DNA of 64,000 bases from Syncephalis plumigaleata (lineage: Eukaryota > Zoopagomycota > Zoopagomycetes > Zoopagales > Piptocephalidaceae). This document shows, piece by piece, positions 4,101 through 61,800 of this stretch (position 1 is its first letter; each line of letters starts with the position of its first letter). The notes under the pieces are model-generated. The model did no database searches and was not told the DNA's origin. It saw only the letters and a list, made by a program, of their open reading frames with translations. The stretch is from positions 1,240,001 to 1,304,000 of the forward strand of contig JAIXMF010000003.1 in assembly GCA_025201365.1 (NCBI GenBank), written 5' to 3'. Both the position numbers and the translations under genes were made by a program.

Positions 4101-6320
4101 CAAATTGATATTGTCACCACTCGTGCAGGGTAGTGCGTTGGAGGCACTCGTGGACTATTACGTTGTTATGGCCAATGCCAATCCACAACAATCCACCGAG
4201 CTATTCGATCATCTATTCGCCCTTTGCACGTCTCAAGCACGTTCTACCGCAGCATCTGTATCGAAGCAGGTACGTAGCTATGATGCAGTAGTATATGCAC
4301 TCGCAAACATTAACAAACTATCTTCAGGTCTATACAAATATTGCTCGATGTGCCGCTGTATGCTGCTTGCAAACAACAGAGCAAAAGAATAATGCCGTTG
4401 AGAAATTGATAAAGCAAGCTCAAGTACGTAATGCAATTTATTATTGACACATACATGCATTTGTATTAACCATACAATGTAGACCACATCTAGTCTAGAG
4501 TCTTTACGCTGTGCTTCTCTACAGACATTGGGTGAGATTGGACGTACGAGGTAGGTAGAAATAATCGAATCATACATGATGTGTGCAACGACATTATACT
4601 TACGATGATGTAGTGATCTGAGCAGTGATGAACAATTGCACGCCAAGTTGCTCGAGCTACTACTCGATCCTTCAGAGGATATTAAATCGTCAGCATCGTT
4701 TGCTTTAGGTAAGAACTAGCTCTCCGTTTATTTACTATTATTCCGTGGATAAACACGCACTCATTGACATGTTGCCAATATTAGGTAATCTGGCCGCGGG
4801 TAATGTCACACTTTACGTGCCATTACTCATTCAGGAAATAAAACTAAATGATAAGCGTCGCTATCTACTGCTAAATGCATTGAAAGAGGTGAGCTAGGCT
4901 TATTAATCCAAGTAGAAATGATTCATCGCGCTAAACTACTCGTTAACAACAATAGACCATTTCACGCTATTCCTCCGATGATCACGCTCAATTGATGGAT
5001 ACGTATGCTGACGACATATGGTAAGTATGCATATTGGTGTTTAAACTATACTAATAACAATATGGCTATTTACTTGTCATAGGGCTTTACTATACGCCGA
5101 GAGCAATGTTGACGAGGAAACAGCAAAGAACGTGGTTGCCGAGTGTATCGGTCGGTTGACCCTGGCTAATCCAAGAAAATTCCTTCCTGAACTACAAACG
5201 CGAATTCATTCGGACTCTGCTCGTTCTCGTGCCGCATCCATTTCGGCGGTCAAGTTTACCTTCACCGGTGTGCAGTCGCGTGCCTATGACGATCTATTGC
5301 AGCCATTGCTAGTCGAGTTCTTGTCGTTAATGAAGGATGAAGAACTGGTATGTGTGTTTGTTTGTTTGCAAGCAACTAGTCAAGCATGACTGGTATGCCA
5401 ATTACATTATAGTTACGCTAACGAATTACTTTGCTAGACGGTACGACATTTGTCGCTTACCACGCTCAATTCGGCGGTGCATAATAAGCCACAACTAGTA
5501 CGCGATGTACTAGACCAATTACTGCCACTCCTCTATAAAGAAACGGCCATCCGAGTAAGTGAACGCCCTGTTTCCGGTATTTCTTCTTTGTATTAACCGT
5601 ATTCCATATAATAGTCGGAACTCATTCATACCGTCGACATGGGTCCGTTCAAGTATCAAGTGGATGATGGATTAGATACGCGCAAGGTAAGTTGAACCCA
5701 GTAGTTCTACTATTCTTTTTCTTCTTCTCCCCTCTCCCATTCAGTTGGCTGACGAGAGTATAACAGGCCGCATACGAATGCATGTCTACCTTGCTAGAGT
5801 CGTGTACAGACCGAGTAGACATACCCGTCTTCCTGGATCACATTATTCCCGCCTTGAGTGATCAGAATGATATTCGTGTTTTGGCCTATCTTATTCTGGC
5901 CAAATTGATCCGTATTGCTCCCACTGCAGTAACACAAAGTATGTAGAGCATAGCCATTATCACCCTAAGTAGGTAAAGGATTTGCTAACAAATGATGGTA
6001 AACATGATATGACAGGACTGGATGATATAGCCGATCCATTGAAAGCCACCTTAACCCGAAAGTTAAAGGAAAACGCGGTGAAGCAGGAAGTGGAGAAGAA
6101 CCGCGAACTTGTCCGATCTGCCTTGCGTGCATTGGCGGCATTAGCTACACTGCCCGATCATGCAACGGCGACAAAGTTCGACGCTTTACTACGTGAAACG
6201 CGATCAGGCCCGTTGGAGGCCGAGTTCCGTATTGCCACGCAGGAAACCGAGAATCGAGAACTATACCGTCTAGGCAGCGGTAATGCTCGTACAACTAATG
6301 ATGATATGGACATTAGCTAA
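1131..6320 (+). CDS. CAND1: Cullin-associated NEDD8-dissociated protein 1 (CAND1/TIP120)
   Basis: This HEAT-repeat protein is built from many short exons. The first two are 1131-1160 and one starting at 1240; the last ends with TAA at 6318-6320. The N-terminus has the typical HEAT repeat ([10 protein letters not shown], then [10 protein letters not shown]). An Asp/Glu-rich loop encoded at about 2480-2590 is followed by [10 protein letters not shown], as in animal CAND1. The C-terminus has [20 protein letters not shown] and ends in MDIS, close to the family's NSVKQEFEK and MDTS. CAND1 binds un-neddylated cullin-RING ligases and exchanges their F-box/substrate-receptor modules. Introns are about 50-90 bp. 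I did not resolve every splice site, so the coordinates give start and stop only. Length is about that of the family (around 1,200 aa). Confidence 0.93.
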
Positions 6321-7530: not shown

Positions 7531-7547
7531 TACAGGCTTTTTCCATC
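7531..7547. repeat. Solo terminal fragment of the Fanzor element
   Basis: TACAGGCTTTTTCCATC is identical to the TA target plus the first 15 bases of the Fanzor-element terminal repeat at 21329-21345. No partner repeat was seen nearby. It lies just downstream of the preceding gene and could be a decayed insertion or chance, given its 17-bp length. Confidence 0.4.
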
Positions 7548-7983
7548 TTATTATAGTCTTTCTCCTCTTTGAAGGAAGGGATCGCTTATTAAGCGGTTGT
7601 CAATTACATGATCCGTTTTCTTATCTTAACCAAGGAAGCATGTCACCTAATATTCTTTTGTTACTTTATTGCTCATTAGCAATACTAATATCTTGATCCA
7701 TACTGCTATTAATAGAATAAAACCATTAATTCCATAATTATTTTACTTGGCAACGATCCACTATTAATTAATTAACTCGATTAGATTAGATTATTTGGCT
7801 ATCTTATCGTCGTCTATTCATTCGTTTGGACCCAAAAAACCCTGACAACATTAGCGTATATTAAGCGGGTACGAATTCCCGTCCACTTGGGTACATGGCT
7901 ACTTCTTTGCGTCCCGGTAGGAACTCTTCATACTACAACATCTTCGCTCTTGTATCTTTAACCTGGTCATCATTAGTTGCAAC

Positions 7984-8647: not shown

Positions 8648-8681
8648 AATATGTACATAGATGTTGATCCGTTTCCACATA

Positions 8682-9287
8682 CAGGCTTTTTCCATCCAAT
8701 TTGCGCAGTTAGCCTTCTGTTTTATGAATAAATAATATTTAACACTTACAAGTATTGCTACTCCGTATTTTGGGGTGCCACAGCTGTTTGGGCGACAGTG
8801 CGGCGGGTTGACGATACAACCTGGTTAATTTGTTTTTTGATGTTTGGATCCCTCTTGATCTTGTCCATCTTGATCTTGATCTTCATTTAGTGAATGCTTT
8901 GCGGATGTACTAGGCTCAGGAGGAGAAACGGCACCTCGATGGAATTGTGTTGGAATACGATTTTTCTTACGAAGCATGTGAATAATCTGAATGAAATTCA
9001 GACATGCAGCCATATCCCGATTCCATACACGGTAATCAATAGCTACTTGTAATTACATGACATGGTAATATCCAATTATACTAGTACACTTGTATCATCT
9101 ATCTTATATAATTGATGACGATAGTTATCGCTATCAACATAGGATCCATTACTAAACATGAATTGTTATTATTATCATGCTGTATCAATTGGCATTTCTA
9201 TGGTAATCATGGATGTTAATTATACAAGTTTATTAATAAAGAGCAAAAGTTAAAGGATAAATGCGCTAATTGGATGGAAAAAGCCTG
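8682..9287 (-). mobile_element. Internally deleted Fanzor element (606 bp, non-autonomous)
   Basis: The ends are inverted repeats (left CAGGCTTTTTCC, right GGAAAAAGCCTG) flanked by TA on both sides (8680-8681 and 9288-9289). The left about 370 bp is collinear with 21331 to about 21665 of the full element, allowing for indels in the repeat-coding region. The right about 230 bp matches the full element's right end from about 25317. The internal join lies near 9048-9062 around ACTTGTA. It keeps the last Fanzor coding segment (minus strand, down to 8825) and the 3' flank, but most of the gene is gone. It is therefore a deletion derivative that would need factors from an autonomous copy. Confidence 0.9.
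8825..9048 (-). pseudogene. Fanzor C-terminal remnant
   Basis: The minus-strand frame reads VWNRDMAACLNFIQII and then a Pro/Ser and Asp/Gln-rich tail ending in HQKTN. It matches the RuvC-III motif and tail of the intact Fanzor (WNRDMAACLNFIQII). The acidic repeats, zinc ribbon and all upstream sequence are absent. The fragment has no upstream coding sequence of its own and is best regarded as a relic carried in the deletion derivative. Confidence 0.85.
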
Positions 9288-9424
9288 TATGTCCTTAACC
9301 ATGTGATACCAATGTGTATTAAATATCCGTGCTTATCAGCTAGTAAAAATTTTCATCAAGTTATACCTATCTAATTCCTTACATTCCACGAAAATATTAT
9401 TGATTCATAGAATTCGCTACTACT

Positions 9425-18890: not shown

Positions 18891-19090
18891 GCTTGCTTTT
18901 AGCCGCTTTAGTTTTGATTCCTCACCTTGCATACACGTCCTGGTAAGATCTTCTAGTATTCTCTATTCTTTTATAAGCACAACATTACGGTCCCGTCTGT
19001 GCCTTGAATATTTCCTAGTTATCTTTTATTGCAGCTGCATTTGCCGACTACACTAGATCCTTCAACGACTACAACTACAACGATAGCAAC

Positions 19091-19804
19091 ATGAAGCATA
19101 TTATTCGCATTACTCTTGTGGCCGCTATTGCCGGTTTGGCCGTCATGTCCCAGGTGGCCAGTGCGGAGCGTGCCGTTTCACAGCCAAAATCAAGCGAATG
19201 CGTATTTTGCATCCAAGCCGGGCCAAAATGCCCGGATAACTGTCCCATGGGTCAGGAATGCGTAATCACCGAGTCCACTTGCACCGAGTGCGGCACCGCC
19301 ACCTGCAAGGACGTCAAGGTGTCCATCCCGGAAAAGAAGCCCGAGCCTGAGAAGTGCCTGGCCTGCGCGCAAGTCGTGCCAGAATGCCCAGTCTGTGCCA
19401 AGGGCCAAGAATGCGTAATCACCGAGGACACTTGCAACAAGTGTGCCACCGCCACCTGCAAGGCCGTCGAGGTATACATTCCAGAGAAGCCCGAGGACGA
19501 GGAATGCGTGGTCTGCGCGCAAGTTGCGGAAGAATGCCCAATCTGCGAAGCCGATCAATACTGCCGTATAGAACGCCAAACTTGCCGTAGCTGCGGAAAA
19601 TCGCAATGCATTAGCAAACGTACTCTTCCTGCCAGTGCTTCTCCATCAAAGCTCCCCATTCCTATGGCACGATCGGGCGAGGTCTGTGTCCAATGCCTCC
19701 GTCAAGCCACATGCCCAAAGAATTGTGCCAAGGGTGAGCAATGTCATTTGACCGTACAAGACTGCAACCTCTGCTCAACATCTACTTGTGTTGCTGTGGC
19801 TTAA
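19091..19804 (+). CDS. Secreted Opy2-like cysteine-rich protein
   Basis: A single coding exon of 237 aa. Residues 1-25 are a signal peptide (LVAAIAGLAVMSQVASA). Four Cys-rich repeats follow, each about 40-45 residues, of the form CxxC, CPxC, GQECVI, ETDTCxxC, ATC. The repeats are joined by short Lys/Pro/Glu linkers such as VSIPEKKPEPE. This matches the extracellular Opy2-type domain and the paralogue at 13931-14593. There is no membrane anchor or GPI-like tail at the C-terminus (ends CVAVA). Codon use is GC-richer than in the surrounding spacer, as in other expressed genes here. A TATA box and probable leader intron are upstream. Probable secreted or wall-associated protein; function unknown. 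Confidence 0.8.
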   Translation: MKHIIRITLVAAIAGLAVMSQVASAERAVSQPKSSECVFCIQAGPKCPDNCPMGQECVITESTCTECGTATCKDVKVSIPEKKPEPEKCLACAQVVPECPVCAKGQECVITEDTCNKCATATCKAVEVYIPEKPEDEECVVCAQVAEECPICEADQYCRIERQTCRSCGKSQCISKRTLPASASPSKLPIPMARSGEVCVQCLRQATCPKNCAKGEQCHLTVQDCNLCSTSTCVAVA

Positions 19805-20959: not shown

Positions 20960-21330
20960 AGTTTCAGAGCGATACAAGGATAGTTGGTGTGTAAGTGTGA
21001 GTAAACGAGAAGAGAACGAGGTGTGTAAAGGAAAGGGAAGAGGAGGAGGTGTTTGGGAAGCGAAATATAAATGATGATGATGACGATGACACTTGCGCAA
21101 TAACAAAGCTATATTTAGTACGGCTTTACTAATTATCCCATAACAGGTTGCTCAATTAGTCATTCCAAATGATACAATTATCGTAGATCTGCAATGCAAT
21201 ATACGCTTGTTCTCGTTGATGTAGCATGAATAATAGCAAGCAGCTTTTCTTTTGCTAATCATGCTTACTCAGTCGATAGACTGCTTAAACGATGTTTGAC
21301 GCAATACGTTAAAGGAAGCTCAGTCATGTA

Positions 21331-21473
21331 CAGGCTTTTTCCATCCAATTTGCGCAGTTAGCCTTCTGTCTTTACGAATAAATAATAGTTAACACTTACA
21401 AGTACCCCCGTATTCTGTTTCCCAGCCCCTCTCCCTTTGGGGAAAGACTAGGACGGTTGACGATACAACCGGG
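21331..21473 (-). ncRNA. Candidate Fanzor guide-RNA (omega-RNA) region
   Basis: This 143-bp stretch lies between the Fanzor stop codon and the transposon end, on the gene's sense strand. In known Fanzor and TnpB systems the scaffold RNA comes from here. It is kept in the deletion derivative at 8682-8824. Both copies contain a hairpin CGGTTG-ACGATA-CAACCG (21454-21471; shorter form GGTTG/CAACC at 8806-8821) and identical terminal 38 bp. The 5' limit may extend into the coding sequence. There is no expression evidence, and the call is by analogy. Confidence 0.45.
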
Positions 21474-23862
21474 TTAATTTGTTATTTGTTGTTTGGATCC
21501 CTCTTGACCTTGATCTTCATTTAGTGAATGCTTTGCGGATGTACCAGAATCAGGAGGAGGAACGGCACGTCGTTGGAATTGTGTTGGAACACCCTTTCCA
21601 TTGCGAGCACTGCGGATAATCTGAATGAAATTCAGACATGCTGCCATATCCCGATTCCACAGACGATGATCGTATCTGTTAAATTCCGGATCCTCTTTAT
21701 ACTTCTTGCGCTTCTTGTCATCCACGTCCATCCTATCCTCTTGCTCCTCCTCGTCATCCACGTCCATTAGATCCTCTTGCTCCTCCTCGTCATCCACGTC
21801 CATTAGATCCTCTTGCTCCTCCTCGTCATCCACGTCCATCAGATCCTCTTGCTCCTTCTTGGCCTTTATATCTTCCATGGCTTTATTACAAGTTTGATGT
21901 GTGCATCTAATAAAATAATTAATTACTATATCATGATAAATAGCAAAGTGTAATAAATTGTACTTACCTTAAAAGACCATGACAGATAATTTTATGGCTG
22001 TCTCCATGTTGCTTCGACCGAGGATTCGCGACCTTCTTGAATTTCTCGAGGGTGGGATTGTTGCAGGCTGGGCAGCACTTGCTGGTCTTATGCTCGTCGA
22101 TTAGAAAGACTTTAAACCCGTGTCGTTTCAAAAGCCTTCTAAAGCCAATACCACGTATGGGCTCGTGGTATTTGGTGTGAGGAGCGGACCAGTTCCCCAT
22201 CACAAATGCTGCATCCCCATCGAACTTCTCCCTTAAGTCATCAATCAGCTTTTGATCACTTTGTTGCTTGCTGATGTAGGCTGACAATTTCAACTTCCTG
22301 AAGAGAGGATGTTGGGCAGAATGGTCGGAGGGGAGGGTGAGAGTATCTCTGTAGAAGCTAGTAAGGACCTCCGAGTGCTGTGATCGGCGTTCCAGATATT
22401 CCTTATATTCCTGTAGAGATAAAGTGTTGCCCTTGGTTTCCGAAAGAGCTGCCTCGGCCTGCTGCACCGCCTTGTTCCCCTCCTTGCAGTCATCGCGAAT
22501 CTTGCGGTATTTCTTCGTCCTCCGCATCTTGTCCTGATGTAGTTTCGTGTACCGATATTTGCGCTTATTTTCCACCGTCGAGTTTTCGTGTACACAAAAC
22601 AGTAAGTTCCTTCTTCCCGGGTCCACCGCCACGCATTTGCCGTCGATTGCCTTGTGATCATCAGCTTTTAATTTACTGATATACGGGAAGGGATCCTTTG
22701 CTGATTTCGCTCCCCCTTCCTCGGTGACCTTCTCGATGCCCTTTTTGAGGACCGTGACACCAACGCCATCGGTCTCAATCGAGCCAGAAAACTCGAGCTC
22801 ACCACCCTTTTGATCTCTGAATACCCTTCGATTGAGCTCCACGATTTCTCCCCAATGTTTCTTCTTTTTCTTCTTAAGGGCTTCCTTCCTCTCTTCATCG
22901 GTCCACTTCTTCTCCGCTTCCTTCTGCTGCTCAGTCTTCTTATCCTCATAACTGCGTCCTAATATGTTGTGGCAAAGAATAACTGTGTCGATATGAACGT
23001 AGCACGGCGAGAAGGATCGGCGCAAGGGAAAGCAGTTGAAAGGCTTCAAGTCGAGCTTCTTAAACAGACGCGCAAGTTCAAGGAACGCCTTAAAGTGCTT
23101 CACCGGGTGTTGTTTACAGTCGTAGTAAATGCCGTTTGTACCAAATTTGTAATCTTTACCGTAAGCATTTAAAACACCTTTGAATTTGTTGAATGCTCCA
23201 GCAAACGTGCGATCCTTTTTAGCCAACGCTTGAGGCCCGTCTCGCTGTACCATTGCTAGCTTGAATGTTCTTGCTGGCTCAGTGATTTTATTGGTTTTCT
23301 TGCGAATCACATCAGCGGTTACATCCTTGGGCAATCCATCCCTCATATCCTTTAACTTCTTCTTAACCTTGAAATGCTCGTTAATAGCGCGTCGAAGATG
23401 ATCACCAAAACGCAATCGGACGTTGTTGGTGTAAGCGACGTACATCTTCCTTGCCTCATAGGTTGCTGATTGCTGAGCATAGGCCAACTCTGGCTTTTTA
23501 TAGCCAGTATGGACAAGGTAAGCTCTAACATGGTCGTCGAGGAACGCGCGATATCGACCTGTTTTCTCTTGAGGCCCGTGTGCTTTTTTGGGCTTGATTA
23601 AGGAGAGCCATACTTCTTTGAAAAAGTCTACACGGATATACCTCTCCATGTCAAAGTGCCGATTATGCTGCTGTTCAAGAAAAATGTACTTTAGGAGCGA
23701 ATAGGCATGGAAGGTCGTAGTATGTACGATGTTTACAAAGTCGCGTAAAACACCGCGACGCTCCTTCTTCCAACCAATGCCAGAAAGCGAAGACTTCACA
23801 GCCAGAACTCGTTCACTGTCGGCAGAAGTAGACGAGCCATGAGTGCCTGGCTGTGACGCCAT
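21474..23862 (-). CDS. Fanzor RNA-guided nuclease homologue (eukaryotic TnpB-like), apparently intact
   Basis: Two exons, 21968-23862 and 21474-21906, separated by a 61-bp GT-AG intron, give 775 aa. The C-terminal half carries a RuvC-like nuclease. RuvC-I is CVAVDPGRRNLLF (Asp 414), RuvC-II is the Glu in FLIDEHKTSKCCPAC (Glu 590), and RuvC-III is LWNRDMAACLNF (Asp 718). The zinc ribbon uses C597/C600 and, after the intron, RCTHQTC (C633/C638). The splice is supported because it rejoins the zinc ribbon in frame. An acidic tandem repeat (EEQEDLMDVDDE, about four units) then a Lys-rich stretch is inserted between zinc ribbon and RuvC-III. The N-terminal half has many Lys/Arg helices, as expected for RNA and DNA binding. 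Characterised Fanzors are RNA-guided DNA endonucleases; activity here is inferred. Position inside a TIR element indicates transposon association. Confidence 0.93.
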
Positions 23863-24163
23863 GGATGAAAGGGATGAATATCAATATAGAAGCAGTATGT
23901 TAAAACGAGCACAGTTATAATATGAAGGGTTAATTGATCTTTTATTTTATTGTAGTATAGACGCTTCTTTATATACGTGGCATGCTGGTAGTACTAACTG
24001 CGCGGATCTGATGACGTAGGGGTGAAACGCTCGTGCAGACACATACAGGAAGGGTGAATCTATTATGGTAAGTAGTATCATTTACAGCGCAACACAGTAA
24101 GACTCGTATCATCTAGTGTCATTGTAGCAATGGTATAACGCCGCTTAGAACATAGCAATCGGT

Positions 24164-24279
24164 AAGCATTAATAAGTACTAATGAACTTGTTAACACTTT
24201 ATTAAATATATTCGTTATTAATAAATGAACAGAATTTTGTAATGGATGTTAATAGATGAATTAGCACTTATTAATGCTT
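24164..24279. repeat. Inverted repeat in the Fanzor element's 5' non-coding region
   Basis: Arms AAGCATTAATAAGTACTAAT (24164-24183) and AATTAGCACTTATTAATGC (from 24259) are near-perfect reverse complements around a 75-bp AT-rich spacer. They could be a nested MITE or a cruciform-forming regulatory sequence upstream of the Fanzor promoter. Confidence 0.5.
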
Positions 24280-25665
24280 CCATTAACAACTTCTCCTTAT
24301 CTATTTGTTAACACTTGATTAATGGTCTATCAATCCACTCCAAGTATTCATTTCATTGCTGCTTCTCTTTCCCCTTTCCCCTTTACTTCATTACCTACAT
24401 TATTTCTTCCTCCTTTACCTCGTTAACAATGACAATATATTTCCATTCCTCATTATCGACTGATGTATAAATTGTTAATTTTCTTTATTAGTCAATAAAA
24501 ACATCTTTCTTTCTCTCTCTTTACTAATGCTGTCTTCTTCGTACTAACCTCACTTCCCTTGTCATTCAGTAACACACTTCTTTGTGTCAACTACATTCTA
24601 GTTGTTTCTTTTCTTTTCTTTTCCTTTTCTCTCTCTTTAACAACACACACGTCTACTTCCTCTTAACTATATGCTAGCTAGTTCTTTTACTTTCTCAGTA
24701 ATACGCGTCTTCTTCGTGTCATTCGCATTCCACTTACTTCCTCTTTCACTTTAGCATACACATTCCCAATAGCAGCTATTCTGCCATACTATATCTATGA
24801 CTTTTATTTGTCTCTTTGTTCTCTTCCTCTTCTTCTATCCTATCTACATGCTCACTTGTCGTTATTATTGTTACTATACCAATAAGCCTTGTTTATTGTT
24901 CGTTCTAGTCCTTTGTTTTCTATCACTGTCCTGCTTATTTATCAATGTTTAAGCGTTTACTGCTCTCGTTGTAATATGTACCTTTCACTTTTACCACTCT
25001 TTTTCGTCATCTGTTTGTATGCCACCCTTACGTCATGCTTTTATTTGTATTTTTATTTGTTTACTGCCATTTACATACTCTATCTACCGCATACAAGCAT
25101 ACACTGCTCCTTCAAATAAACTGGCATACGTGTTCATGCACCCTTCCTTGCTCATTCCTTGTTCATTCGTGACAAGTCAGTCATTCTACTAGCTACTGCT
25201 TGTTTATTACATTGTTTATCATATATTCACTTTGTTCACTCGTTGCTACTCATATGCAATCATTTGTAAGCATTATTATCATAACTTATCTACCATTCTA
25301 GTTTATTACTACTTGTAGGTACATGACATGGCAATATCCAACTATACTAGTATACTTGTATCGTCTACCTTATAGAATTGATGATGATAGTTATTGCTAT
25401 CGATAAATGATCCATTGCTAATACTGAATTGTTATTATTATCATGCTGTGTTAATTGGCATTTCTATGGTGATAATGATGTTAACAATTGTGTTAATCTA
25501 TTTATTAATAAACTGCAAATGTTAAAGGATAAATGCGCAAATTGGATGGAAAAACACTGTATGATGATCAATTATGCTGTTTCATTAACTTTTATTTTAT
25601 TTTTTATTTTACGTTTCTTTTTTCGTTATTGTCTCATCGCTGGTTGTCATTTACTTTTCAGCAAT

Positions 25666-26249
25666 ATGTCCGTATCCACTACACCTTCCTCTGTGGCTGC
25701 ACCGCCAAACGTTCATCCAAACAAGGCTGCCTTTATAGAGGGTGTGGCACTGGCACTAGAGTCATGGACCGCGTTAAGCCTGGCCATTGATAACGATTGG
25801 AGTAACGATGGATTGGGCGAGGAGAAACGGCCATGGATGTGCGATATTCTTGTAGATTATTTCGGCCAACGAGCTCAGCGGGTAGAACCCGAGGATGTAG
25901 AGGATATTCTATTGCAAATCATGCAAGATGAATTCAATACAATGCTTGAAGACGGCAGTGCCTACGAAGTAAGATAGCGTCTGTTTGACTGACCGATTGA
26001 TTGATTGTTAATACTAATTGCTGCGATCAATGATAACAGTTAAGCAAACAATTAGTTACCATGTATCGCGAGGTTATTCGTGGTAATCATCGTTTGGTAG
26101 AGCAGCTACGCGTTAAAGCAGAACAACGTCGACAACAGCCCAGTTGGATGGCAACACAATCGAGACAAGAATCGACCAATGAACAGGATAATGATAGTGA
26201 TGAAGATGAGGATGATGATGAAGGTGAAGACAATGATAATATGCAATAA
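25666..26249 (+). CDS. TSR2: Pre-rRNA-processing protein TSR2
   Basis: Two exons, 25666-25968 and 26040-26249, joined in phase 0, give about 170 aa. The start is the ATG of MSVSTTPSS; open sequence farther upstream belongs to the transposon end and leader. The Tsr2 core is clear: a helix AAFIEGVALALESWTALSLA, then the WGG-type region DWSNDGLGEEKRPWM, then EDVEDILLQIMQDEFNTMLE. The tail is a typical acidic stretch of Asp/Glu/Asn. Tsr2 is a chaperone that escorts ribosomal protein eS26 into pre-40S particles. The Fanzor element ends 107 bp upstream of the start codon, so part of the native promoter may have been displaced. Confidence 0.92.
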
Positions 26250-53879: not shown

Positions 53880-54002
53880 GAATGCAGCGTTTAGTGTATA
53901 AATAACGACAAGTAGAAGCAAGCAACGCGTGGTACGTTATAAAGGAAAATGAGCGCAATAATAAATTGATGCCAGCGCGGAATAAGCAAAAAAAGTTTTT
54001 TA

Positions 54003-54223
54003 CAGTGCTTTTCCATCCAATTTGCGCAGTTAGCCATTTGTCTTTACGAATAAATAATAGTTAACACTATCAATCTAGGATCCATTACTAATGCTAAATT
54101 GTTATTATTATCATGCTGTATCAGTTGTCATTTCTATGGTAATAATGGATGTTAATTATACAAGTTTATTAATAGAGAGCAAATGTTAAAGGATAAATGC
54201 GCAAATTGGATGGAAAAACACTT
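54003..54223. mobile_element. MITE-like Fanzor-element derivative (221 bp)
   Basis: The left end CAGTGCTTTTCCATCCAATT and the right end (inverted AAGTGTTTTTCCATCCAATT) match the Fanzor element, with TA on both sides (54001-54002 and 54224-54225). The left about 66 bp equals the full element's left end and the right about 155 bp equals its right end; nothing between is kept. It lies about 120 bp upstream of the NMA111 start codon. Confidence 0.88.
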
Positions 54224-54561
54224 TATTTTACTCCACTGGTGTCAATGATATTACCAATTGGTTTGTTTGGCAGTTATTTTATATATATATACATGAAGAG
54301 TTGTCAACGTTGCCTATTTATTAGTCACATTAATGGCTAGAAAGTAAACGAAATGAGAAAAAGGCAATGCTTACTCGTATATTGTAATCGAAACAGATAT
54401 ACTGGATAGATAGTATAGTAAAAAATGAAAGCAATAAAAACACACGCTTTATTAACAAAATATTTATGTTATGTAGTTATAGTGGCAATGGAGTAATTAC
54501 TTATTGAAACCTTATAATGCAATGCCCACGTCAATATTAATAGCATTTCATATCGGATTAT

Positions 54562-58541: not shown

Positions 58542-58785
58542 TGTGTCTACTGTAGTGGTAAATAGATGAGAGTGCAGATGGGTGCGATACGACGAATAAT
58601 GATGAGAACGATCAAAGTGCAGGCGATGGAATCAACTGTTGCCGAGGCGCGAAAAGTGTGAATAAGCAGGATGGACAGACGTGCTCCCAATCACTGGATG
58701 ACAAAGGGAGATGAGCAATCTACTGATTTGAAAAGATGAAATGGTTCAAGTCAATAATGATGAAAGAAAGTGAATTCATCAAGTA

Positions 58786-58814
58786 CAGGCTTTTTCCATC
58801 CAATTTGCGCAGTT
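58786..58814. repeat. Solo 29-bp terminal repeat of the Fanzor element
   Basis: CAGGCTTTTTCCATCCAATT followed by TGCGCAGTT, preceded by TA. Identical to the left 29 bp of the full element. No inverted partner nearby. Confidence 0.8.
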
Positions 58815-58857
58815 CATCATGGTCACCTAAAGATCACTTCATTGACATGGTACACTA

Positions 58858-58870
58858 CAGGCTTTTTCCA
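58858..58870. repeat. Second solo terminal fragment of the Fanzor element
   Basis: CAGGCTTTTTCCA preceded by TA, in direct orientation 44 bp after the first fragment. Confidence 0.55.
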
Positions 58871-61800
58871 GCCTAATACAATCCACAAGTTAATGATAAT
58901 AAAGAATACCATTGCTCCATAGGATAGACAAATCATTCTAATAATGTAACTATTTGCAATATATAAGAAAAAGAGATACTAAACATGACATTGCTTTTAT
59001 TGATATCTCCTCTGTTTCATTCTTCAACTTTTTATTGATTAACGCATAGATAGTATGATTGCCAAATGAAATGGCCCAGTGTTCTATTTACTTGAATATC
59101 GTGATCCATCATCAGTGATCTCATGACTTGCATTTTATAGTTCAGTACAATTTCTTCTCTATATCTATCACACGGTTTGTACAGATTGCCGAACTTTTTT
59201 CCGTATTATTATTTCTTTTGCTGCGGCAGCGTCTGTCATCACACAGCATGCCATGAATGTTATCACGCCTAGAGACAGATACACACACGTGGTACAAAGC
59301 CGTAGAAGAGGAGACAAAAACAGAAGAAAAAACATGTCTGCCTCATTTGGTCGGCCTCCACTAATCCCGACCCAATAACATCGTTACAACAATGATATTT
59401 AGAGAGAAAGAGAGGAAAGAGAGAGAAAGCGAATCAGTTTTAATGCACTACAGGAGGTGTTTGTATCACTGTGTTACTCTATCACCGTTAACTATAACGA
59501 ATGGACCCGTTTAACAATCATATGATTACCATTGGACCATGCAATATAATATGCCTATACGTTTATGCGTGCTTGTGTATGTATGTATGTATGTCTATGT
59601 GTGTGTGTGTGCTTGTGTAATGCAGTGCGGTGTGTTTCACTTTCATTCGTTTATCATTTCGATGTTCTTGGTTGGTTCCACGTATAACATGAACGTGCAT
59701 ATGTCTTTCGGTGTCGTTTTGTCTCCATTTTGCAAGTATAGAATAATAAATGTCTTCCATGCTGCTACAACTACTACTACAACAACAACAACAACTGCAG
59801 CATAGTCGTTGTTGGACAAAAAGTTCTACATTCACTAAACTCAACTATTGTTGTATGCATTCAACTGGCATGGGATGAAACGTAGCATTTTACGCACGTT
59901 AATGCAGCTACAGGTTCGGACAATGATATGTGGTCTAGAACGGAATCCGTTAAACGAAAGTGTCCATCATGATCATTATTATTTTGTTACTGCCCATTAC
60001 CCCTTATGACTTTTTCCTATCTATCCGTTTGATGTTTTTTCCATTCATAATCTGTATACTCATTAATTGTGTATGTATGTATGTATGTATGTATGCATAT
60101 ATGTATGTGTGTGTGTGTTTTCTCCTTTTCTTAAACAATGACAGTACGATTCTTTGTGTTCCGCATGCTGTAATTGTCCATGCCGGCATTTCAATAGTGA
60201 CACAAGCAATGTCGTTCTACCAGACGTGGTGCTATTGTTCAACGCATCCTTTGCGGCTCTATTAAGTGCGGATCTTGCTGTAGTATTCGTTGTACCCCAG
60301 CGGGCTTGTATTACCGTCATTCACCATTCAGATGTCAGTTATCTGCAACCACGACGATCTGACTACCAATTTATGACGATAATGCATGTGTGTGTGTGTG
60401 TGTCTGTCTGTCTGACTACATGTCTCTTACTCTCTCAGTCTGTGCTTGTTTAACCGTAATGCCAATCCAATCCAGTATCATCGTTACAATCATGAGATGC
60501 ACATGGATGAATAGTTGAACGAGCATGATAGCATCAGAGCAACAAGCAATAGTTGTAGTTGGTCAGATGTTCAGCCGGTGTACACACCATAGCCGACATC
60601 TGTACGGTGCCGTGTTCATACACGTTGTTGCTATTGCAGTTAGAGGCCTTGCCATCAAGTCAAAGCAGTAAACTGTGGCTGCATTGTTATTATTGGTCAA
60701 AGTCTCGACCTACATGGAATGATGATCTGGCGTAGCCTACCGGTTTCAATGGTCATGACGCCATTTCTCAGCATAGCCCCCCATCATTATTGTCGTTCTA
60801 TTGTAGAACAAACGGTTTTAGCAGAGTGGATTCACATGGTATGATGAAGTGCCACTTTTATGTACTATTTACTTACTCGGTAGTTATCTCTGTAAACGAT
60901 ATGCTGATATTTACAGGGCCCATTCAGCAGTGAACGTGTATACTCAATAGACGACTTGTCTAAATGGTATATCCGCTATCGCTGAGAATAGTAATTGCCT
61001 TATCCTAAAATAACCATCTGAACATGGTTACAGAAACAATGATGATGATGATGATGATGATGACGACGACGACGATGTAGTAGTAGTACTTGCCATGTAT
61101 ATCATTCTTGTTTCTATCCGTTCATGCAAGGTAGTTCCTACTATTCTGATATCCATTGGAACAAGTGCACCACAATGGTATTCACTCCATCAACGCACGC
61201 ACGCACGCACGCACGCACGCACGTCCACACGAATGTACACATGGAAAAGTAAAAGGTAAAAGGCCCTTTATGATGATGATAATAATGATGATGATGCACC
61301 TACACCAAACCACGTACATATTGCCATCACACACAGACACACAGACAAATTTGTTCATCGAATGCACGAATGGACGAGGTGCAAGAAGATCATGATATTC
61401 GTTTGTTGTAACCAAACACCAATTGCATCAATAATGTTACTGTGCTATGATTGTTATTGCATTGTTGTACTGTAACTGATGGTGATGATGATGATGATCA
61501 TGTACGCAGTATTTGACAAACGAGAGCTGATTTCACGTTCATCCGACCAGTTTTAGAATGTGAACATAATAGACCGACATCATGCCTTGACAAAAAAAAG
61601 CATCAGATGGTATTTGAAAATAGAGCGCAACGCACACGCACGTATCAAATTGTGATGCATGCCACGAGTTTTCTTTTATTTTTTTCATTATTCAACGCCA
61701 TACCATTTCTCTCAATTTATTGTTGCATGTATGGTAATCATAGTAAATGACGAAGAAGAGGAATGGCATGAAGCGGATAATACTCGTACCAAGACCATTT

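Follow-up and report, generated by a model that had tools for sequence, protein, structure and literature searches.

The DNA analysed here, a 64,000-nucleotide stretch of the Syncephalis plumigaleata genome (the window), contains a transposon carrying the gene of a protein that we assign to Fanzor1 from its sequence. The host is a mycoparasitic fungus of the Zoopagomycota, in line with an earlier model-made reading of the letters (the sequence-only reading) that proposed an early-diverging fungus; PMC6784888 counts a sister species among obligate mycoparasites. With both TA copies the transposon spans 21329–25561 on the minus strand, and without them 4,229 bp (21331–25559), boundaries given by terminal repeats with TA at both ends and by the same ends in other copies. 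The right (3′) end has its TA target-site copy at 21329–21330 and a terminal repeat of the TACAGGC type, followed inward by GTTAG, at 21329–21356 on the plus strand (TACAGGCTTTTTCCATCCAATTTGCGCA). The left (5′) end has its TA copy at 25560–25561 and a repeat of the TACAGTG type, followed inward by TTTAT, at 25534–25561 on the minus strand (TACAGTGTTTTTCCATCCAATTTGCGCA, read from 25561 to 25534). The two repeats are imperfect, 26 of 28 positions being alike, and the ends can be told apart (right, TACAGGC...GCGCAGTTAG; left, TACAGTG...GCGCATTTAT). Their core, TTTTTCCATCCAATTTGCGC, has seven matches in the window at up to three mismatches, against 0.01 expected.

Two hallmarks of Tc1/mariner transposons, terminal inverted repeats and a TA duplication, are present in the window element; the third, a self-encoded DDE transposase, is absent. 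No transposase gene was found within the element, where frames outside the Fanzor gene reach at most 79 amino acids (these frames were not profile-searched); a 188-amino-acid stop-to-stop frame (25411–25977) crosses the left end outward into the adjoining region. The sequence-only reading was therefore right that a complete inverted-repeat element with a TA duplication lies here and, within that scope, that it holds no other protein-coding gene. We call the element transposase-less and Tc1/mariner-type because it has no DDE transposase inside while related elements elsewhere encode one of the DD34E type. Duplication of TA in this family is supported by a sister Fanzor insertion, L016, whose element-free counterpart has a single TA. 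The window insertion itself recurs on a second contig (C325:44695–49051; L011) with flanks about 99% identical; internal patches drop to 0.915–0.96 identity, as if stretches of the element had been converted from other copies.

The Fanzor1 gene runs on the minus strand from an ATG at 23862. Exon 1 (21968–23862) encodes D414, E590, C597 and C600 and is followed by a GT donor at 21967 and a predicted 61-nt intron (21907–21967); exon 2 (21474–21906) starts at 21906, encodes C633, C638, a run of acidic 12-amino-acid repeats and the RuvC-III residue D718, and ends with the stop at 21474. The reading frame is intact across the two exons and encodes 775 amino acids; in P0003, a public protein model, the exons are joined identically. 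The end of exon 1 (HGLLR) with a donor-like site and a downstream exon-2 motif is found in 26 of 30 Fanzor locus rows, two of which (L032 and L037) overlap; the exceptions are L012, with a donor and no exon 2 in reach, and the broken L021, L030 and L038. Among solved structures, phmmer matched the protein to PpFz1 of Parasitella parasitica (E=4.2e-112), SpuFz1 of Spizellomyces punctatus (E=1.1e-39) and GtFz1 of Guillardia theta (E=5.4e-4), the alignment to Fanzors that the sequence-only reading had proposed as a check. D414, E590 and D718 align with SpuFz1 D383, E541 and D606, whose spacings of 158 and 65 match the published 383/541/606 numbering. The RuvC D/E/D triad and the C4 zinc ribbon followed by RD that characterize Fanzor1 are thus in place, with C597, C600, C633 and C638 as the zinc-ribbon cysteines; the putatively spliced 775-residue Fanzor with its catalytic residues and four cysteines, as first read, holds. 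Most relatives of the protein bear the precomputed label PF26935. The acidic repeats lie between the zinc ribbon and RuvC-III and differ among copies. The seven Syncephalis Fanzors in a 19-protein tree cluster together (support 100/100) beside Mucorales proteins, with the Syncephalis protein P0008 on a long branch; the remaining named relatives that two protein searches returned are from Mucor and Rhizopus. Because the root is a midpoint only, we claim neither a direction nor a host–parasite transfer from this tree.

The element belongs to a large family. A genome-wide search with the 20-base end core at up to three mismatches gave 532+524 (1056) matches compared with 3+0 for a reversed control, which bears out the suggestion that further elements share these ends. 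Fanzor exon 1 matched 83 stretches of the genome, of which 16 cover query residues 1 or 2 to 631, 15 of them without an internal stop. Ratios of non-synonymous to synonymous substitution (dN/dS) among 22 intact copies, kept from the 29 loci L009–L037, range from 0.15 to 0.59 with a median of 0.40 over 231 pairs that are not independent. Purifying selection acts among the Fanzor copies.

The 74 distinct sites with paired ends comprise 11 elements of about 230–240 bp, 23 of 540–600 bp, 35 of 970–1240 bp and five longer ones. Two short (ghost) derivatives with both ends lie in the window on the minus strand, one of 610 bp (8680–9289) and one of 225 bp (54001–54225); the former at least is a deletion derivative, because it retains Fanzor 3′ coding sequence. 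In a scan of 28 loci for short elements, L003, L008, L084 and L089 yielded no pair. All 26 short elements examined (225–1153 bp), which were picked for paired ends, also retain the inward right-end block. Like the ghosts described for SpuFz1, these 26 have kept the repeats and the predicted omega-RNA region and lost the gene. Full and short forms may also swap in place, since two Fanzor sites carry short inserts on other contigs: at L013, a 4085-bp Fanzor element on C362 corresponds to about 589 bp with a Fanzor-type right end on C179, and at L022 a 4144-bp element on C340 corresponds to about 544 bp, of content not read, between the same flanks on C282. Some Fanzor insertions look polymorphic, two having element-free counterparts. 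Single end-like sequences without a partner occur in the window at 7531–7548, 58784–58810 and 58856–58873, possible scars of lost elements, and a broken Fanzor copy at C1:572852–573292 (L059) holds a nested Tc1-type transposase gene with different ends.

The right end is predicted to be transcribed as an omega-RNA. From right-end conservation and published omega-RNA lengths we place a 60-nt scaffold, with the TA at its end, at 21329–21388 on the minus strand; the guide of the window copy would be the adjoining host flank (21314–21328, minus strand), by comparison with the SpuFz1 and SfAV Fanzor1 guides. Across the 45 unique right ends, 21 from Fanzor copies and 24 from short elements, the mean conservation per ten bases is at least 0.91 in the last 40 bases, 0.76–0.81 in the next 20 and 0.40–0.62 beyond, the dip before −60 arising partly from a one-base length difference. 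Conservation alone is no proof of an RNA, because the left end is conserved too, as transposase binding would need. At each position of an AGGCU/AGCCU stem in the right end, 37–45 of the 45 ends have a standard pair, and RNA folding gave weak, variable structures. In the accessible text of the respective reports, the PpFz1 omega-RNA is 75 nt (PMC11423790), that of SpuFz1 combines a 75-nt scaffold with a 14–15-nt guide at the 3′ repeat (PMC10432273), and Fanzor1 guide RNAs extend about 15 nt beyond a target-site duplication (TSD) that lies inside the scaffold (PMC10711439). A 60-nt scaffold up to the TA, extended by some 15 nt of the flank, would fit these published Fanzor1 omega-RNAs.

A candidate partner that could move such elements is present in the same genome. 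A DDE_3 profile search gave 31 matching stretches, among them a family of five copies identical over about 2220 bp to the right end with different flanks, which for that reason moved recently. The full element of this family lies on C90 at 380462–384998; its repeats start TACAGGGTTTTTCCAACCAGTTGGC and are perfect over the 70 bases shown, its transposase is DD34E (Tc1/mariner), and a search with this protein gave 27 matching stretches. In the outer 47 bases, the two repeat variants of the DD34E element match the Fanzor left end at 36 and 38 positions and the right end at 33 and 35. From base 8 inward this similarity is better than the best of 20,000 shuffles, so we conclude that the Fanzor ends share ancestry with the DD34E family. 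Inside the repeat the two kinds of end differ. A DDE_1 search gave no match, but neither did its 14 controls, and it is uninformative. The DD34E element is, judged by its ends, a plausible trans-acting transposase for the Fanzor elements. It also contains a 180-amino-acid opposite-strand frame (C90:380827–381366; joined coordinates 4328–4867) with, by eye, a helix-turn-helix-like stretch.

Flanks of the family carry a one-sided footprint resembling a target-adjacent motif (TAM). We scored 196 of 284 left-end flanks (100 of 188 plus all of 96) and 182 of 264 right-end flanks (100 of 182 plus all of 82), which collapsed to 163 and 152 sites once near-identical rows were merged. An A directly before the left-end TA, hereafter A(−1), occurs at 103 of 163 sites, compared with 32% at TA sites of the window, and two non-overlapping samples gave 63% and 64%. 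The mirrored T at the right end is found at only 38 of 152 sites (Fisher p=7e-12 against the left end). A is also raised at −2 (98/163) and −3 (78/163). By size class, from short to long, A(−1) is found in 8/11, 14/23 and 24/35 elements; Fanzor-bearing left ends have it in 8 of 9 scorable cases in one set and 1 of 3 in another, the left end of L015 being unscorable and those of L018 and L024 not found. In the window copy the predicted TAM, 5′-ATA-3′, comprises the host-flank A and the TA (25560–25562, minus strand). The accessible text of PMC11423790 gives a measured PpFz1 TAM of ATN; with a guide starting past the TA, the A of ATN would fall exactly on A(−1), in the same register. In S. punctatus, CA is reported to be conserved outside the 5′ repeat with a TAM of CATA (PMC10432273), a direct parallel to the left-flank A seen here.

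Element-free sites were sought in two ways. Joined flanks of 16 sites (8 Fanzor, 8 short) returned three candidates. L016 is empty on C136, where one TA stands and guide positions 1, 2 and 11 are mismatched; at the empty L017 site on C13, four bases are missing at the TA, corresponding to guide positions 1–4. The third candidate, the 8680 site on C325, was rejected as a deletion scar that keeps the final right-end bases, and is not counted below; this scar (C325:33590–33722; L102) has short shared sequence at the joint. The second query used 30 bases from each of 74 sites, a set built from 98 of the 196 left ends and 91 of the 182 right ends, selected by eye for a likely partner (83 paired, 74 distinct; L007 belongs to both query sets). 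It recovered both positive controls and four further alleles, of which three match the guide perfectly over 30 bases and have G, G and T before the TA; the fourth has A there and a mismatch at guide position 3. We treat the six as alleles because their joined flanks match, the first two being 93–95% identical over about 110–122 bases and the other four having been read over only 42–64 bases. Three of the six have A(−1) and are all altered at guide positions 1–4, three have another base and an intact guide match, and none combines A(−1) with an intact match. None of the 47 A(−1) sites has a perfect empty allele, compared with 3 of the 27 other sites (nominal p=0.045), in a query of 30 bases that under-detects altered alleles. 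Two contigs carry the insertion at 33 sites, 22 with A(−1) and 11 without (nominal p=0.051 against the perfect empties). The pattern is suggestive of homing or retention but no proof of it.

We consider it reasonably probable that this is a transposase-less Tc1/mariner-type element whose Fanzor1 acts as an RNA-guided nuclease in retention or homing and which is moved in trans. The right end would be transcribed as an omega-RNA with the adjoining host DNA as guide; Fanzor would cut a matching element-free site bearing a 5′-ATA TAM; and repair of the cut would restore the element or copy it to the empty allele, by which the nuclease would serve retention or homing. The related DD34E transposase would act in trans to insert elements at new TA sites. 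Hundreds of ghosts would share that transposase and, via the common right end, perhaps the nuclease too. A stronger version, in which Fanzor and its ghosts are natural RNA-guided homing elements of a eukaryote, with the right-end RNAs of hundreds of elements directing one set of Fanzor enzymes to convert empty alleles, is possible yet doubtful; persistently empty alleles would then be ones in which the TAM was always absent or the guide seed has been lost.

Several observations weigh against this explanation. Exon 1 gave only a Pfam TNB match below threshold, at 17 bits with a cut-off of 26.3. The right-end stem showed no compensatory change in 45 ends. The sequence-only reading had suggested mobility in trans or a mariner-like transposase elsewhere that recognizes these ends; the genome does contain the DD34E element with related ends, but none of the 30 DDE_3 loci, taken with 1.5 kb on each side, showed a transposase whose ends are identical; the ends of longer elements may escape this span. 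As no exactly matching partner was found, mobilization in trans is something we infer. A(−1) is missing from 3 of 12 scorable Fanzor-bearing left ends and is present in only 1 of 5 paired elements longer than 1.9 kb. The empty-allele p-values are nominal because the division by TAM emerged once the hits had been inspected and involves only six places, and with such short matches some empties could be paralogous segments. Finally, the TAM is unnecessary for fixation, since 11 of the 33 sites filled on two contigs lack A(−1).

The main competing account, which we judge unlikely but not negligible, attributes the left-flank A to a target preference that the transposase shows at one end, with Fanzor an idle passenger that has no part in the empty alleles. 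The ends differ at positions 6–7 and inward, which would allow a transposase to distinguish between them, and sites without A(−1) are likewise filled on two contigs. The transposase element's own ends have A at −2 in 10 of 16 cases and at −3 in 8 of 16, so the left-flank bias is probably in part a transposase preference, a further point against our explanation. Against this account, A occurs at −1 in just 5 of 16 of those ends (p=0.016 when compared with left ends of the Fanzor family), the base and register of the footprint agree with the TAM reported for PpFz1, and the Fanzor reading frames are under purifying selection. A narrower role, in which Fanzor does no more than act in excision repair of its own element or control its transposition and converts no alleles, seems to us rather improbable: the full and short pairs at L013 and L022 are the outcome expected of abortive gap repair, but such a role alone does not predict a TAM-like flank bias in short elements that have no Fanzor. 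We give still less credence to the view that the copies are decaying relics of a past spread whose nuclease is now inactive. Several copies are indeed broken or contain stops; against this stand the many intact frames, dN/dS of at most 0.59 in the 231 non-independent pairs, and the two Fanzor insertions with element-free counterparts, which make some look polymorphic.

If the stronger version, with Fanzor and its ghosts as homing elements, were correct, haplotypes of the host would hold a readable record of RNA-guided homing. The paper that established Fanzor activity describes its natural role as unknown, in the accessible text (PMC10432273). In this genome a single Fanzor-linked family has hundreds of insertions, for which second haplotypes are in part assembled. 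Together with the one-sided footprint, candidate transposase and empty alleles, this makes retention, homing and passenger models separable and the role of Fanzor testable. Elsewhere in the window, a frame at 19019–19804 would encode a cysteine-rich, possibly secreted protein.

In the literature searched, which left most subscription papers out of reach, we found no report of Fanzor in Syncephalis. Nor did we find there a description of a left-flank footprint with this empty-allele pattern in a eukaryote, and we do not claim that none is published; for Fanzor, gene drive and homing, the one paper containing Fanzor among the matches listed was a bacterial TnpB preprint. Earlier publications describe both Fanzor ghosts and mariner-like elements that carry Fanzor1 alone and have TA duplications. 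Those of Bao and Jurka (2013; for example PUl-4) resemble the window element in having Fanzor1 as sole protein, Mariner-like repeats and TA duplications; the MuDr-type elements of Rhizopus, Phycomyces and Mucor in the accessible part of the same work have 9-bp TSDs, whereas the Syncephalis family has TA. TnpB of bacterial IS200/IS605 is reported to cut element-free plasmid copies and thereby spread its element in a gene-drive-like manner (PMC11870625); that system is bacterial, acts on plasmids and has another type of transposase, whereas the present one is eukaryotic and mariner-type, and its spread by the nuclease would be the counterpart that we propose. PpFz1 (PDB 9cf0–9cf3) is the closest solved sequence and shares the RuvC residues and zinc ribbon. 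Its ATN TAM agrees with the left-flank preference, and its 75-nt omega-RNA would fit the 60-nt scaffold plus guide predicted here. The window protein lacks the FRI insertion of PpFz1, having 14 residues between aligned blocks compared with 112, and has acidic 12-amino-acid repeats ahead of RuvC-III that aligned Mucor relatives do not. Spu-1, the SpuFz1 element of S. punctatus, is described in the accessible text as combining Fanzor, inverted repeats and many ghosts with no transposase between the repeats, an omega-RNA at the 3′ repeat and TAM bases conserved outside the 5′ repeat; the Syncephalis family has the same make-up, with a predicted omega-RNA and a TAM-like base in the corresponding places. 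Spu-1 belongs to another phylum, its TAM is CATA, as against the A-TA predicted for Syncephalis, and its ghosts number 134 loci, whereas the end core has 1056 matches in the Syncephalis genome, or about 500 elements were all of them paired. Unlike in the Spu-1 comparison, a related and recently active transposase was found in the Syncephalis genome.

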